Shown here one piece after another: positions 6,471 to 33,155 of a stretch of DNA of 44,428 bases. Each line of letters starts with the position of its first letter. The stretch's first letter is position 1. The notes under the pieces are model-generated. The model was not told the DNA's origin, made no database searches, and saw nothing but the letters and a program-made list of their open reading frames with translations. The stretch is taken from contig JAURYL010000011.1 of assembly GCA_030653935.1 (NCBI GenBank), positions 1 to 44,428 of the forward strand, in the 5' to 3' direction. The stretch comes from Pseudomonadota bacterium. Lineage in GTDB: Bacteria; Pseudomonadota; Gammaproteobacteria; Burkholderiales; Thiobacillaceae. A program made the translations under genes and the position numbers.

Positions 6471-6580
6471 GAGATACCACCATAGAGGTATGGTGGATAT
6501 TGATCAAGCTGTTGAATTCATGTGTAACCACAGGGGTGGTATCGGTGGTTGTGGGCAATTTGATTCAATGGTGGTATCTC
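6471..6580. promoter_or_regulatory. cluster of GGTGGTAT repeats upstream of narX
   Basis: GAGATACCACCAT (6471-6483) is repeated as its exact inverse complement ATGGTGGTATCTC at 6568-6580. A further GGTGGTAT lies at 6535-6542, and an inverted repeat CCACCATA-GAGG-TATGGTGG spans 6477-6496. Such repeated, oriented octamers look like response-regulator sites, with NarL itself a natural candidate, although they do not match the E. coli NarL heptamer well. Confidence 0.5.
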
Positions 6581-6624
6581 TCAAGCCCATGGCGGGCCGC
6601 CGGCCCGCGATATCGGTACAGAGC

Positions 6625-8517
6625 ATGCAGAGAATCTGGGACATCGTGTTTGAACGCTCCATCATGCTGTGGCTGGCGGCCATCTTTTTCGTGGTCACGG
6701 CCATCGGCATCGGCGGCATGGTTATTTCGGTGATCGTCGCCGAGCGCGTACAGGGCAGCGGCAGCGCCATCAACGTCGCGGGCAGTCTGCGTCGGCTCAG
6801 TCATCGCATGGGCAGCATCGTCCTCTCGGATGCCGAGAACCGGGTGACGGACCACTACACCTTGCGCGAGGCCATGGTGCACTTCGAGGCCACGCTCAAC
6901 CATGACGCGCTGTCCCAGATGTTGTCGCGGCAGACGGACAGCCCTTTCGAGACCGCTTACGAGGCCGTGCGGGAATCCTGGCACCAGCGCCTGAAGCCGC
7001 TTTTGGCCGAGCAGATGTTGTCGGGGCCGAATCTGCATCCGGTCGCCACGCACAATCGTCTGCTGCTGCGCATTGATGAATTCGTCGAGCAGATCAATCT
7101 CATGGTGGCGCAGTTGGAGGCGGATACCGAAGAACGCATCCGTCACCTGCGCCTCATCCTTTGGGTCGCTCTGGTTCTCACCATCCTGGTGTTGTTGAGC
7201 GGGTTCTACGCGCTCCATCGCCGGGTGCTGATCCCCCTCGACGAATTGCTGGGCGGCGCCTCGCGCATCGCCCAGGGCGACTTCGCCACGCGTACCCTGC
7301 ATCTCGGTCGCGATGAGCTGGGGCGGCTGGGCCAAGCATTCAATACCATGGCCGAGGCGGTCTCCAGGTCGCACCGGGAGCTGGAGGACAGGGTGGCGGA
7401 GCAGACGGCGGAACTCACCCGCGGCAACCGCAGCCTGGCGCTGCTCTACAACGCCATCGCCCAACTGCATCACGCGCCCACCGCGCCGGAGACCTATCGC
7501 GCCATGCTCGGCGACATCGATGCGCTGCTGGAATTGCAGGGCAGCATGGTCTGTCTCCAGTCCAAGCACGGCGGTCCGGCGACGTTGCTCGCGTCGAGCC
7601 TGCCGCCTTGTTCCGAGCGCGGCACCACGGGCTGTGGCGATTGTCTGCGGCGGCTGGAACGCGAGCGGGGCGGCTACGGGGAAAACGACGGCGCGAATGT
7701 CCTCAACCTGCCGCTGCGCGACAAGGAGGGTATTTATGGGGTGATGCGCCTGGCCTTGCCGCCTGGCCGTCGGCTGGAGCCCTGGCAGGAGCGATTGCTC
7801 GCGGCATTGACCCGGCATGTCGGCATCGCGCTCGGCATGAGCCACAAGGCGGAGCAGGAGCGGCTGCTCGCGCTCCAGGAGGAGCGTTCGGTGATCGCCC
7901 GCGAGTTGCACGATTCCATCGCCCAGGCGCTTTCCTATATGAAGATCCAGGCCAGCCTGCTGCAACCGGTGCTGTCCAACCCGGCGCGGCGCCAGGAGGC
8001 GGAAACGACCCTGCGCGACCTGCGCGAGGGCATCACCACCGCCTATCGGCAGTTACGCGAGCTGCTGGCGACCTTCCGCCTGAAAATGGAGGGCGATTTC
8101 ATTACCTTGCTCGACGCCGCCGTCGAAGAATATGCCGCGCGCGGCGGCGTGCCCATCCGCCTGGAAACCCGGCTCGCCGGCTGCAACCTGACGCCCAACC
8201 AGGAAATGCACACCCTCCAGATCGTGCGCGAGGCCCTTTCCAATGTCTTGCGCCACGCCCAGGCGCGCCAGGGGCAGGTGCGGGTGATCCATCTCGGCGG
8301 CGGCGAGGTGGAAGTCGAAATCGTGGACGACGGTATTGGCGCCGGTCATGTCGTCCGCGAGTCGGGCGAAGACGCGTTACATTACGGCCTCGCCATCATG
8401 CGCGAACGAGCCCAGGGCCTGCGCGGCGAGATCGCCATCCAGGACGGGCCCCAAGGCGGTACTCGGGTTTCCCTGAGGTTCCAGGCAGCGCTCACCACCG
8501 ACTCCCCACCATCATGA
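6625..8517 (+). CDS. narX: nitrate/nitrite sensor histidine kinase NarX
   Basis: The 630-residue protein (from ATG 6625) has membrane helix 1 at about 16-38, a periplasmic four-helix sensor with a P-box (INVAGSLRRLSHRM, about 49-62) like the NarX nitrate site, helix 2 at about 178-196, HAMP to about 245, and a central module with clustered cysteines (C329, C337, C340) also seen in NarX. A HisKA_3 domain follows with the phospho-acceptor His in ARELHDSIAQALSYMK (about residue 429), then a HATPase with REALSNVLRHAQ and VDDGIGAG. It phosphorylates NarL, encoded next. The frame is open from an ATG at 6490, but that would place conserved inverted repeats inside the gene; start 6625 matches the NarX N-terminus. 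It has no strong ribosome-binding site. Confidence 0.88.
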   Translation: MQRIWDIVFERSIMLWLAAIFFVVTAIGIGGMVISVIVAERVQGSGSAINVAGSLRRLSHRMGSIVLSDAENRVTDHYTLREAMVHFEATLNHDALSQMLSRQTDSPFETAYEAVRESWHQRLKPLLAEQMLSGPNLHPVATHNRLLLRIDEFVEQINLMVAQLEADTEERIRHLRLILWVALVLTILVLLSGFYALHRRVLIPLDELLGGASRIAQGDFATRTLHLGRDELGRLGQAFNTMAEAVSRSHRELEDRVAEQTAELTRGNRSLALLYNAIAQLHHAPTAPETYRAMLGDIDALLELQGSMVCLQSKHGGPATLLASSLPPCSERGTTGCGDCLRRLERERGGYGENDGANVLNLPLRDKEGIYGVMRLALPPGRRLEPWQERLLAALTRHVGIALGMSHKAEQERLLALQEERSVIARELHDSIAQALSYMKIQASLLQPVLSNPARRQEAETTLRDLREGITTAYRQLRELLATFRLKMEGDFITLLDAAVEEYAARGGVPIRLETRLAGCNLTPNQEMHTLQIVREALSNVLRHAQARQGQVRVIHLGGGEVEVEIVDDGIGAGHVVRESGEDALHYGLAIMRERAQGLRGEIAIQDGPQGGTRVSLRFQAALTTDSPPS

Positions 8518-28776: not shown

Positions 28777-29184
28777 ATGCGGCTGTATGGCTGGTTCTTC
28801 CTGATATTCATCTCGCCGCAAGCCGTGGCCGTGGATGTGATCGTCAATCGCGCCGTGGCCGGCAACAGCCTGGCGGAGGCGAGCGCCCGCGCCTTTTTCG
28901 GAATGCGTCTGAGCAAGTGGCCGGATGGCAGGCCGGTACAGGTCTTCGTGTTGCCGGACGCGCATCCGGCGCATGTTGCGCTGTGCAAGGAACAGCTTAA
29001 TCTATACCCTTATCAGCTGCGTCAATCATGGGATCGCCTGGTGTACTCGGGCATGGCGCAGGCGCCTGTTGAGGTGGCCACGGAAGAAGAAATGATTAGC
29101 CGGGTGGCGACGACCCCTGGTGCCCTGGGATATGTCAGGAAGGTGAGAGCAAATGATCCAGTCAAAATCCTCTATGTCGATTAG
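28777..29184 (+). CDS. PstS-like periplasmic substrate-binding-type protein
   Basis: The 135-residue protein has a signal peptide (MRLYGWFFLIFISPQAVAV) and one lobe of a PstS-type phosphate-binding fold: AFFGMRLSKWPDGRPVQVFVLPD, then a helix with RQSWDRLVYSGMAQAP and the PGALGYVRKV end. It is much shorter than PstS (about 340 residues) and has no ABC transporter partner; such stand-alone half-size forms are seen beside signalling genes. AGGA lies before the ATG. It is the first of three genes; the next begins inside its 3' end. The function is inferred to be ligand or anion sensing. Confidence 0.78.
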   Translation: MRLYGWFFLIFISPQAVAVDVIVNRAVAGNSLAEASARAFFGMRLSKWPDGRPVQVFVLPDAHPAHVALCKEQLNLYPYQLRQSWDRLVYSGMAQAPVEVATEEEMISRVATTPGALGYVRKVRANDPVKILYVD

Positions 29185-30349
29185 AACCGCAATGCTGCTT
29201 GTGGCGGCGCTGTCGGCTGCTCCGGTCGGGGCGGTCGAGCTGGGGCGGGGGGTGCAGGCGCACGGGTTTTTCAGCCAGTCACTGGTGTATACCAGCGACA
29301 ACAATGTCGGTGGCAAGAGTGATGATGGCCTGGCGACGGACATGCGCGAGCTTGGCGCCAATCTTTCCTGGCGTCCTAATGCCGACTGGCTGCTATCTGG
29401 TCAAGTGCTGGCGCGCTGGGCGGGTGCATCGGATGATGGCGACCCGCGCCTGGATTACGGTTTCGTCGACCGCAGCCTGCTGAGTGATGGGGACACTTCG
29501 CTGGGCTTGCGCTTGGGCAAGATCAAGAATCCCTATGGCTTCTACAACACCACCCGCGACGTGGCGCATACCCGGCCGGGCATCATCATGCCGCAGTCGG
29601 TCTACATGGATCGGGTGCGAAATTTCTATCTGGCCGCGCCGGGCATCGCCGTTTATGGCAATCATGTGACGAAGCGCAGTGATATCAGTTGGAGCCTGGG
29701 TGTCATCAGGCCGGATGGCGACGACCCCGAACTTGAAAGCCTGTTTCTCACCCAACAGGATCCCGGGCGCTTCAAGGGCAAGAACTCATGGTTGGGCCAG
29801 GTGTTGACCGAACTGGATGGTAGCCGCTGGCGTCTCGGTCTGACCCTCGGCGAGGTCAATATGCAATTTCGCCCGGGAGCGGGTTCGGCGTTCGGTGCCG
29901 GCAGCAGTCGTCTGCTGCCGTTGGTGCTGTCGTTGGAAAGAAACACGGAAAAACTCAGCCTCACCGCCGAGTATTCGGAGGTCAGAAACAGTGGCTCTGG
30001 ATATGGCATACCCGGCCTCGACGACACCAACACCCTGCTGGCCTGGTATGTTCAGGGCACTTACAGGCCCGCCGAGCATTGGCGTGTCTACCTGCGCCGC
30101 GGCGAGATCTACGTCGACAAGTCTGATCGTGAAGGCGTACGTCAGACCGTAGTGCCGCCCTACGCCATGTTCGCCAAGAACTGGACGCTTGGGGTTCGTC
30201 GTGACATCAATGAATGGGCCTTATCCGCGGAATGGCATCGTGTCGACGGTACCTTGTGGGTGTCGCCGCTGGATACGCCATTCAGGCCAGTGAACCAGCA
30301 GAAGGCGGATTGGGACATGCTTCTACTCCAGGCCGCCTGGTATTTCTGA
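29153..30349 (+). CDS. outer-membrane beta-barrel (porin-like) protein
   Basis: The 398-residue protein has a signal peptide (TAMLLVAALSAAPVGA) and then alternating beta-strand sequence ending in an aromatic C-terminal Phe (LLLQAAWYF), the mark of outer-membrane barrels. Segments such as GKIKNPYGFYNTTRDVAHTRPG and LGLRLGKIKNP resemble porin and phosphate-selective (OprO/P-like) barrels. It overlaps the preceding gene by 32 bases from ATG 29153, which has AAGGTGAG upstream; ATG 29174 is an alternative. The GGDEF/EAL gene starts 2 bases after its stop, so all three are one transcript. No specific substrate can be claimed. Confidence 0.82.
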   Translation: MIQSKSSMSIRTAMLLVAALSAAPVGAVELGRGVQAHGFFSQSLVYTSDNNVGGKSDDGLATDMRELGANLSWRPNADWLLSGQVLARWAGASDDGDPRLDYGFVDRSLLSDGDTSLGLRLGKIKNPYGFYNTTRDVAHTRPGIIMPQSVYMDRVRNFYLAAPGIAVYGNHVTKRSDISWSLGVIRPDGDDPELESLFLTQQDPGRFKGKNSWLGQVLTELDGSRWRLGLTLGEVNMQFRPGAGSAFGAGSSRLLPLVLSLERNTEKLSLTAEYSEVRNSGSGYGIPGLDDTNTLLAWYVQGTYRPAEHWRVYLRRGEIYVDKSDREGVRQTVVPPYAMFAKNWTLGVRRDINEWALSAEWHRVDGTLWVSPLDTPFRPVNQQKADWDMLLLQAAWYF

Positions 30350-30350
30350 C

Positions 30351-33155
30351 ATGCGCCAGGACCGCCGGATCGGCAACGGAACGGTGCCCGCGTTGCCTAT
30401 TTTTCTAGGCATCCGAGGCCAGATCATTCTTTTCGCCGGCCTGACGTTGGTTCTGACGGCCGCCGTCTTTACCTGGTTGCAGTTGCGCCATTTCGATCAA
30501 TTGCGGGATCAGGCCTGGGTACAGCAACGCCAGCAGAGTCACGATCTGGCCGCGCGTCTGTTCGTGCATCAATCCGGCCGCCTGCAAGCGCTCGCCACCC
30601 TCGTGGCCGACTTGCCCGGGGTGCGCGCCGCCTTGCGCACCGGGGATTCCGAGAAGCTGCAAGCGGTATTCATGCCGTTCTGGTCGGAGCTCAACCTGAC
30701 CCATGGTCTTGACCGCGTGGCCTTCATCGCGCCGAATGGCCGCAGTCTGGGCGATTGGGGGATGTCCACGAGTGTGACCGCCGTGAGCGGCATGGCGCGG
30801 GAGGCCAGTCGTCGTGAATTGCCTTCCTATGGACTTGATTGCACCGTGACCTGTTTTTATACGGCCGCCATTCCCCTGGTGGAACGGGGTCAGGCGATCG
30901 GCGCGGTGGTGCTGGCCATGGGCCTGCAGGATCTGATCATGGATTTTCGTACTCTGTCCGGGATGGAGGTCGCCTTGCTCGGCAGCCTCGCGGAGGGGGA
31001 GATCGCGCCACCGACGACGCTTGGCGGGCGGCTGTTATCCGTCAGCGGCGGCGCAAAATATGAAGAATTGCTGCGCGCCTTTCGTCCGCAAGATGGCCTG
31101 GAAAGTGGTTTCGAATTGGAGCACGGTGGCCGCCTCTATCAGTTGTTCATGTTCAACGCGCCCGTCACCGGGGGGGGTAAGGTTCGTTTCCTGGTCATGC
31201 GGGACAGCACCGCGAGCGCCCAGCAAATGCGCGAGGCGGCCTGGAATAGCCTGTTGCTGGGCGGCGTGGTCCTGCTGGCGGCGTTGTTGACCTTGTACCT
31301 CTTGTTGCGTCCGAGCATGAATCGCATCAAGCAGGCTGTGCGCGCCTTGCCTTTATTGGGTGACGGCTTGTTCGCGGAAGCGCGTGGGGCATTTCATGGG
31401 CGCGCGCGCCGCTGGTTTCGTGACGAGGTGGATGACCTGGGGCGGTTGACCTATGCCCTCGCCAATACCCTGGAGCGCTTGCAGGCGCAGTCCCGGCATC
31501 ACGCCGCCTCGCTCCAGGCGCAGGCGGCCCAGATCGAGCATGAGCGCGACTTCATCGCCGGTTTGCTCGACACCGCGCCGGTGCTGATCCTGACTCATGC
31601 CGCGAATGGACGGATACGCCTGGCCAATGCTCACGCCATTCGCGCCACCGGCCTGCCCGCCAGCGTGGTGACCGGAGCGGAGTTCCCGGGGCTGTTCCTG
31701 AAGCCGGCGCAGCGCGTGATTTATCAGGATGGTCTGGCGCGGCTCAAGGTCGGCATGCCACTGCAGGGCGAAGGAACGCTGCTGCGCGCCGATGGCGGTG
31801 AACGTGAGATTGTCTGGTTCCATTCCCGGCTCGACGAAATAGAGGGGGATTGTCTCTCGGTGGGCCTGGATGTCACCGATCACAAGCGGATGGAACAACG
31901 CCTTTCCCTGCTGGCTGATCATGACGTGGTCACCGGCCTGCTCAACCGGCGCGCTTTCCAGCGCGAACTGGATGGCCGACTCCACCAGGGAGAACGCGGC
32001 ATCCTGCTGGTCTGCGACATCGACGATTTCAAGGCGGTCAACGAGGCGGGAGGACAGGAGGCCGGCGATGTCGTGCTGTTCCAGTTTGCCCAGGTCTTGC
32101 AGGGGCTCTCTCCGGTGCCGCCGCTGGTCGCGCGTCTGGGCGGCGATGATTTCGCCTGCGCGTTTCCAGGTTTGTCTTCGGCCGAAGCCATCGTTCTGGC
32201 GCGGGGCGTCAATCGCGGCCTGCTCCACATGCATCAGGAGTCGGATACGCCCAAACGCCGCCGTCTCTCGGTCAGCGTTGGGCTGGTTGCCTATCCCACG
32301 CAGGGGGGCAGCGCCGACGCACTCCTCGGCAATGCCGAGATCGCGCTGTCTCAGGCGCGCGCCAAGGGCCACGGCTCCTGGCACCTCTACAGTGTGGACG
32401 ACCTCTACAAGGAGTTGGTCAGCCGACGCGCGCACTGGCGTGGCGAGGTTGAACAGGCGTTGGAGGAAAATCGCTTCGTGATGCATTTCCAACCCATCCT
32501 GCACATCGAGTCCGGTTCGATCAGTCACTACGAAGCCCTGCTGCGGCTGTGTGATCGCGATGGTGGCCTGGTACCGCCCGGCCTGTTCATCGACGTCGCG
32601 GAAAGCACCGGCCTGATTCGCCGTATTGACCGCTGGGTGATCGAGGCCGTGGTGAAGTTTGTCGCCGGCCAGGCGTCGGGACTGAAAGTGGCGCTCAACC
32701 TGTCCAGCCGCAGCTTTGATGACGATTCCGCCTTCGAGTTGCTGCAAAGCATGCTGGAACAGCATCAGGTTCCCGGCGAGCGGCTGCTGCTGGAAATCAC
32801 GGAAACCGCCGCGCTGGCCAACTTCAAGAGCGCGACCCGCGTCATGGGTAATTTCCGCGGCCTTGGTTGCGCCTTCGGGCTGGATGATTTCGGCGTGGGC
32901 TACAGCTCCTTCCAGTACCTCAAGGAGCTGCCGGTGGATTTTGTGAAAATCGACGGTTCCTTCATCAAGGGGCTCACCAGCAATCCGGACGACGTGGTGT
33001 TCGTGAAAGCGCTGACCGACGCGGTGCGCGGCTACGGCAAGACCACTATTGCCGAATTCGTCGAGGATGAGGCTACCCTGGCCATCCTGCGCGAGATCGG
33101 CGTCGACTACGCCCAGGGCTATCTGATCGGAAGGCCGTCACCGGAGCTGCTGTAG
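30351..33155 (+). CDS. membrane GGDEF/EAL protein with periplasmic sensor and PAS domain
   Basis: The 934-residue protein has helix 1 at about 24-43, a periplasmic sensor to about 296 with a CxxxC pair (DCTVTCF, C164/C168), helix 2 at about 300-320, a juxtamembrane coiled coil to about 400, a PAS-like domain (400-510), then GGDEF (515-685) and EAL (695-934). The GGDEF site is GGDDF with NEAGGQEAGD where NDxxGHxxGD is usual, and no RxxD I-site precedes it, so it is probably inactive or weak. The EAL residues look complete (EALLR, ALNLS, EITET, LDDFG, VKIDG, AEFVE, AQGY), so it probably hydrolyses c-di-GMP in response to a periplasmic signal. Confidence 0.92.
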   Translation: MRQDRRIGNGTVPALPIFLGIRGQIILFAGLTLVLTAAVFTWLQLRHFDQLRDQAWVQQRQQSHDLAARLFVHQSGRLQALATLVADLPGVRAALRTGDSEKLQAVFMPFWSELNLTHGLDRVAFIAPNGRSLGDWGMSTSVTAVSGMAREASRRELPSYGLDCTVTCFYTAAIPLVERGQAIGAVVLAMGLQDLIMDFRTLSGMEVALLGSLAEGEIAPPTTLGGRLLSVSGGAKYEELLRAFRPQDGLESGFELEHGGRLYQLFMFNAPVTGGGKVRFLVMRDSTASAQQMREAAWNSLLLGGVVLLAALLTLYLLLRPSMNRIKQAVRALPLLGDGLFAEARGAFHGRARRWFRDEVDDLGRLTYALANTLERLQAQSRHHAASLQAQAAQIEHERDFIAGLLDTAPVLILTHAANGRIRLANAHAIRATGLPASVVTGAEFPGLFLKPAQRVIYQDGLARLKVGMPLQGEGTLLRADGGEREIVWFHSRLDEIEGDCLSVGLDVTDHKRMEQRLSLLADHDVVTGLLNRRAFQRELDGRLHQGERGILLVCDIDDFKAVNEAGGQEAGDVVLFQFAQVLQGLSPVPPLVARLGGDDFACAFPGLSSAEAIVLARGVNRGLLHMHQESDTPKRRRLSVSVGLVAYPTQGGSADALLGNAEIALSQARAKGHGSWHLYSVDDLYKELVSRRAHWRGEVEQALEENRFVMHFQPILHIESGSISHYEALLRLCDRDGGLVPPGLFIDVAESTGLIRRIDRWVIEAVVKFVAGQASGLKVALNLSSRSFDDDSAFELLQSMLEQHQVPGERLLLEITETAALANFKSATRVMGNFRGLGCAFGLDDFGVGYSSFQYLKELPVDFVKIDGSFIKGLTSNPDDVVFVKALTDAVRGYGKTTIAEFVEDEATLAILREIGVDYAQGYLIGRPSPELL

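Follow-up and report, generated by a model that had tools for sequence, protein, structure and literature searches.

The window (the whole 44,428-nucleotide stretch of DNA analysed here) is contig JAURYL010000011.1 of a Thiobacillaceae genome (assembly GCA_030653935.1, 3.8 Mb in 135 contigs). It carries an operon of three genes encoding a small PstS-like protein, which we call PstSL, a porin-type outer-membrane barrel, and a transmembrane enzyme of cyclic di-GMP (c-di-GMP) metabolism (Table 1). Judged by its sequences, this operon is a variant of the VpvABC module of Vibrio cholerae, with another gene order, a dCache_3 input domain and, probably, a phosphodiesterase output.

The operon and its three proteins

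The original prediction described the three genes as abutting, with a 32-base overlap between PstSL and barrel and a 1-base gap between barrel and enzyme, and the coordinates of the open reading frames (ORFs), all on the plus strand (28777-33155), agree with this. Promoter-like and terminator-like sites around the three genes showed no excess over shuffled sequences.

Table 1. Positions in the window of the operon genes and of selected domains and segments of their products
Feature	Position	Strand	Remark
Gene 1, PstSL: N-terminal signal peptide (by eye) and one PstS lobe, VpvB-related, periplasmic, 135 aa	28777-29184	+	
Gene 2: VpvA-related porin-type outer-membrane barrel, 398 aa	29153-30349	+	
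Gene 3: transmembrane c-di-GMP enzyme, dCache_3-PAS-GGDEF-EAL, 934 aa	30351-33155	+	
Barrel segment linking strands 5 and 6, where porins carry constriction loop L3	29528-29632	+	Putative L3, judged by position and helical content
Sensor domain dCache_3 (residues 66-266), presumably periplasmic	30546-31148	+	Topology inferred from flanking hydrophobic stretches
GGDEF domain with changed motif GGDDF at 32139-32153	31914-32372	+	
EAL domain	32445-33137	+	E728, N783, E818, D845, E902 and Q922 nearly invariant (alignment of 45)

As a single sequence, PstSL matches no Pfam or NCBIfam family. A profile built from the alignment of 53 relatives (A1) matches PstS chains (best E-value 9.7e-10) and covers about residues 80-190 of the 250-290 residues of PstS, which corresponds to one lobe. 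At the level of individual members, PF12849 matches 40 of the 53 at E ≤1, and TIGR02136 matches nine at E ≤0.01. PstS chains (4exl) are also the best fold matches of the predicted PstSL model (predicted local distance difference test score, pLDDT, 92.8), with template modelling (TM) scores of 0.72 by query and 0.35 by target, an imbalance that is expected if PstSL is a single lobe. PstSL thus has the fold and the profile of one PstS lobe, but is half as long and lacks the two-lobe build and the SGT motif that mark the phosphate-binding PstS proteins, and no transporter part was found beside it. The original prediction had already noted the missing transporter partner, and indeed no phosphate transporter part was present among ten further window proteins scanned, the flanking genes included and the other window ORFs outside the scan. 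In the named records examined, PstSL appears as a phosphate ABC transporter substrate-binding protein or a hypothetical protein, and the barrel as a porin or a hypothetical protein. More distant PstSL relatives (28-29% identity) occur at three acidobacterial loci (L040, L041 and L042), where no barrel was found alongside and the gene downstream, of about 500 aa, carries no label. The phylum tally of 100/299 is not used as a PstSL count, since many of its weak matches have frames of about 270-350 aa and resemble full PstS.

In the window barrel, the Pfam family Porin_O_P (PF07396) scores only below threshold (E 0.054; 13.2 bits against a curated cut-off of 20.9), and membership was therefore rejected; over 70 barrels it matches 14 at E ≤0.01. 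The predicted model (A5 alignment, 55 rows) has a pLDDT of 95.1 and 17 strand elements, which we count as 16 strands by taking elements 177-181 and 184-193 as one. By this count the predicted model is a 16-strand barrel with an inward loop, the arrangement of 16-strand porins. Porins are its best fold matches: the anion-selective Omp32 ranks first (TM 0.59 and 0.65) with general porins close behind, and the TM score is about 0.6 for Omp32, OmpC, OmpF and OprP alike. Unlike these porins, the window barrel is genetically tied to PstSL, and its profile matches no solved chain by sequence up to E 1. The stretch that holds the place of the constriction loop (residues 98-132 of the model, between strands 5 and 6) is better conserved than the remainder, with a mean share of the commonest residue of 0.70 versus 0.50 elsewhere.

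The third protein consists of dCache_3 (66-266), PAS_4 (406-511), GGDEF (522-674) and EAL (699-929) domains. Its changed GGDDF motif is common to the window and three related loci (L032, L034 and L036), and the rest of the group has GGDEF, GSDDF, GADDF and others. The nearly invariant EAL positions listed in Table 1 presumably have catalytic roles. As the GGDEF domain reads GGDDF and the EAL domain looks intact, the main output of the window enzyme is probably c-di-GMP breakdown. A dCache_3 domain is present in 33 of the 45 GGDEF sensors scanned; compared by sequence with solved structures, residues 44-300 of the window enzyme gave only weak, unrelated matches (E ≥0.06). The whole genome has 60 GGDEF matches.

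The PstSL-barrel pair across genomes

Among close relatives, the three genes remain together. The record titles of the closest PstSL relatives include Gallionellaceae, Hydrogenophilales, Thiobacillaceae and Burkholderiales. A PstSL match was found in 28 of 61 genomes, and a close one (≥59% identity) in 20, the window's own genome being counted in both. As the original prediction had anticipated, the triad is adjacent in all 20 genomes with a close PstSL, mostly in fixed surroundings; a contig end truncates the sensor in two of them (G018 and G029), and in G020 the barrel is split into two ORFs (L050:7907-9232). Presence of the barrel follows that of PstSL: PstSL is matched in each of the 23 genomes where the barrel is, and the barrel is matched nowhere among the 33 genomes that lack a PstSL match. 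In G005, the barrel and sensor lie at a contig edge with PstSL out of reach, and one genome without PstSL or barrel (G031) has a weak match to the sensor part. In the window, the operon is preceded by RelA/SpoT, FUR, BamE and DapB genes and followed by HSP90 and HisG genes. Further away, positions 6490-8517 encode a histidine kinase that carries HAMP and a sensor domain of the PilJ type.

We then considered the class as a whole, in which the A1 profile finds a match in 118 of 369 genomes at E ≤1e-3, and in 85 at E <1e-15. One stretch was taken from each of 60 of these 85 genomes, mostly by score order, which gave a class sample of 63 PstSL genes (the stretch from G234 is not its best match, which has a stop). 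A barrel lies on the same strand within 300 bp of 59 of the 63. Within the same distance of the pair, 25 cases have a GGDEF/EAL gene on the same strand, 14 a same-strand chemoreceptor gene, and three such a gene on the opposite strand. Over the 116 loci read (window excluded), a barrel stands beside 112 of 119 PstSL genes, and 116 of 121 barrel ORFs are within 300 bp of a PstSL. Ten whole genomes, chosen for their PstSL, contain 16 PstSL and 17 barrel genes (E ≤1e-10; some of these barrels had been in the profile), and 16 of the 17 barrels are beside a PstSL; the sole barrel gene without one alongside is at G405:C7:63379-64314. Across the 369 genomes, at E <1e-15, both proteins are found in 72, PstSL only in 13 and the barrel only in eight (Fisher p 2e-53, relatedness ignored); at most five barrel candidates per genome were scored, and G141, one of the 13, does have an adjacent barrel. 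The tight unit is PstSL plus barrel, with a sensor gene that varies and is sometimes absent, and, going by the genomics, the closest partner of PstSL is the barrel.

Outside the family, the same gene order recurs without dapB or htpG neighbours, and pairs or triads turn up in different gene contexts in various members of the class and on plasmids. The outer-membrane, periplasmic and inner-membrane parts that the original prediction saw together thus recur together across the class. Several individual loci may be recorded here. The window genome has a second PstSL-barrel pair (G000:C3:35874-37455, L043), whose PstSL is 47% identical and which has no adjacent sensor gene; pairs like it occur in related genomes (L044, L047, L048 and L049), and L082 is similar, its contig stopping 257 bases past the pair. 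Downstream of the pair in L044 (6435-8714) is a gene for a protein matching MtrC/MtrF-type outer-membrane cytochrome domains. A genome of the genus Vibrio carries two PstSL-barrel pairs in tandem (L197:4107-7388), accompanied by an opposite-strand hybrid kinase gene. On an Alteromonas plasmid, a pair adjoins a type IV CRISPR locus with csf genes (L115:6971-8548), and a plasmid of Pseudomonas aeruginosa has consecutive genes for a chemoreceptor, a porin and PstSL (L182:2115-5339).

The third genes found beside pairs encode GGDEF/EAL proteins, GGDEF-only proteins, HD-domain proteins, chemoreceptors, histidine kinases or class III cyclases, or none was found. Hybrid histidine kinases accompany seven pairs (L071, L178, L180, L181, L194, L196 and L197; those of L178, L181 and L197 are encoded on the opposite strand), and there is a HAMP kinase at L079, a dCache_1 class III cyclase at L081 and a dCache_3-HD protein at L211. 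The search for partners looked for signalling kinds, so it is partly by design that only signalling partners were identified. A tree restricted to the 91 pairs whose output is labelled needs a minimum of six output changes, and 28 when pairs without a labelled output are added (128 rows). The window itself is not a row in either tree, but on the 91-pair tree its closest relatives fall within a supported group of 44 rows, all with c-di-GMP outputs.

Relation to VpvABC

VpvABC of V. cholerae is described as the porin VpvA, the periplasmic binding protein VpvB and the diguanylate cyclase VpvC, in a proposal that likewise spans outer membrane, periplasm and inner membrane (PMC12456836). VpvA and VpvB are termed hypothetical in PMC8754643, VarSA is VC_2453 (PMC12051071), and only SBP_bac_3 of the periplasmic binding protein clan had been studied in c-di-GMP networks (PMC8846402).

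One of our loci, L195 from the genus Vibrio, encodes a barrel, a PstSL and a 414-aa GGDEF protein, and adjoins a gene for a 931-aa sCache_4-HAMP-HisKA-HATPase-RR-Hpt protein. We take the layout of this last protein to be that of VarS/BarA. The identification of L195 as vpvABC relies on gene order, on a GGDEF protein as partner, on the VarS-like gene alongside and on DNA of the genus Vibrio, rather than on a name; its genus was assigned through L194, which has the same genus code and is 82.5% identical in DNA over 10.4 kb to Vibrio sp. THAF190c. The PstSL of L195 matches the A1 profile with E 8.6e-20 (67.7 bits, profile positions 4-118), and its barrel matches the barrel profile with E 2.2e-38; in the whole genome, the A4 profile picks out that same position with E 1.2e-28. 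Neither the PstSL nor the barrel profile of the window family was trained on L195. Since L195 matches both, VpvB and VpvA are relatives of the window pair.

The two operons therefore share, by way of L195, a VpvB-type protein and a VpvA-type barrel that are homologous, the same three compartments, and a c-di-GMP enzyme as the last gene. They differ in other respects. The window has the order PstSL, barrel, enzyme, whereas VpvABC has barrel, PstSL, enzyme. The window enzyme is a dCache_3-PAS-GGDEF-EAL protein with GGDDF, whereas VpvC has GGDEF alone and no EAL domain. Finally, the closest relatives of the window form the separate, supported 44-row tree group.

YfiBNR and NspS-MbaA are further systems in which a periplasmic protein controls a transmembrane c-di-GMP enzyme, but their protein families differ from those of the window operon and they are not known to have a porin partner. 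In the literature searched (titles and the starts of abstracts, mostly without subscription papers), VpvABC was the only operon of porin, binding protein and cyclase recognised, and no paper described the pair with chemoreceptors, kinases or cyclases. The three-part idea (as VpvABC) and the wide spread of vpvAB are already published, so the general idea is not new. Within that literature, the new elements are the finding that PstSL is half a PstS lacking the phosphate motif, genome-wide counts showing that the pairing is nearly obligate, the variety of output classes, and the triad group with dCache_3 and, in part of the group, an altered GGDEF motif.

Possible roles of the module

The reading that we favour, and consider fairly probable, is that the operon is an envelope sensing module like VpvABC in variant form. 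The barrel would be the first contact, admitting or binding a small molecule from outside, with its conserved constriction loop setting the selectivity. PstSL might then act as a go-between, either docking on the periplasmic side of the barrel or taking up the compound, and in contact with the dCache_3 domain. On receiving this input, the inner-membrane enzyme would shift its activity, mostly c-di-GMP breakdown by the EAL domain. The pair would be a front end that evolution has joined to different outputs. In favour of this reading are the adjacency of the triad in all 20 genomes with a close PstSL, the recurrence of its gene order outside the family, the pairing and co-occurrence of PstSL and barrel, the several classes of adjacent sensor, the L195 matches to both profiles, and the correlation of PstSL and barrel distances over 43 triads (0.93, or 0.84 with EAL held constant). 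Compared with the original prediction of a route from an external signal to c-di-GMP, the joint conservation of parts in three compartments stands, a phosphate ligand held in a clamp is unlikely, and the output is probably breakdown. The proposal that the PstS-like protein passes its ligand state to the sensor fares less well, as its closest genomic partner is the barrel and the sensor varies or is sometimes absent.

Several observations weigh against the sensing module. No GGDEF, EAL or chemoreceptor gene lies within 300 bp of 21 of the 63 class-sample PstSL genes, and only two of these (L127 and L167) are near a contig or stretch end. The five second-copy pairs in the window's own genome and close relatives (L043, L044, L047, L048 and L049) have no sensor beside them. 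Distances among 43 triads (window not included) correlate at 0.93 between PstSL and barrel versus 0.78 between PstSL and the sensor part; with EAL held constant the values are 0.84 versus 0.42, and with GGDEF held constant 0.87 versus 0.58, figures that are indicative only, given the crude cut of the sensor part and shared ancestry. The closer agreement of PstSL with the barrel than with the sensor points to a PstSL-barrel unit, and the weaker tracking of the sensor (0.42 versus 0.84) does not favour a dedicated PstSL-sensor contact. Lastly, synteny within the family is fixed (fur-bamE-dapB-triad-htpG), with dapB in 20 and htpG in 15 of 21 triad loci, some of which are cut short, so adjacency of the triad within the family is, taken alone, weak evidence.

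Some of these observations also speak for the strongest rival, in which the pair forms an uptake or outer-membrane assembly unit of its own and PstSL is a periplasmic plug, gate or chaperone of the porin. Sensor genes would then be adjacent because they govern behaviour towards the same compound, without touching PstSL. Besides the sensor-less PstSL genes and the distance correlations, the at least six changes of output class on the 91-pair tree agree with such a unit. The identified partners, on the other hand, are all signalling proteins, of six kinds, although this is partly due to the search design. We regard this alternative as a serious one, but rather unlikely.

Much less probable is a version in which PstSL binds phosphate or a similar anion and hands its state to the sensor. 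The match of PstSL to PstS in both profile and fold would suit it, as would the Porin_O_P matches among the barrels and the top rank of an anion-selective porin among the fold matches, with general porins near. The SGT motif of PstS belongs to its phosphate site. At the place of its glycine, none of the 53 PstSL members has G, and 36 have P; SGT strings in five members lie elsewhere, before a conserved QAP. A single lobe also cannot form a two-lobe clamp. The window genome has, elsewhere, one copy of a separate full-length PstS with the motif HRSDGSGTT, adjoining a permease-like ORF that we read as PstC. Because PstSL is one lobe with SGT replaced, whereas the full PstS of the same genome retains SGT, phosphate as the ligand and clamping between two lobes are both unlikely. 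Inherited synteny without joint function, to which the position of family triads between dapB and htpG would point, is the least credible alternative and for the pair is largely refuted, since different genes flank the pair or triad elsewhere in the class and on plasmids, and 16 of 17 barrels in ten genomes adjoin a PstSL.

More tentatively, the pair might be a portable outer-membrane antenna, in which the porin is the receptor and PstSL, docked or diffusible, reports whether the porin is occupied. Such an antenna would have been plugged into at least six outputs (GGDEF/EAL, GGDEF, HD-GYP-type, chemoreceptor, histidine kinase and class III cyclase). If true, this would give Gram-negative bacteria a general means of signalling across their envelope that differs from the TonB/anti-sigma type. 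The analysis ties a poorly annotated pair to a known biofilm operon and places one outer-membrane front end beside several kinds of sensor. It thereby makes testable the question of whether a signalling chain can have a porin as its first receptor, and by what route the state of a porin reaches the inner membrane.

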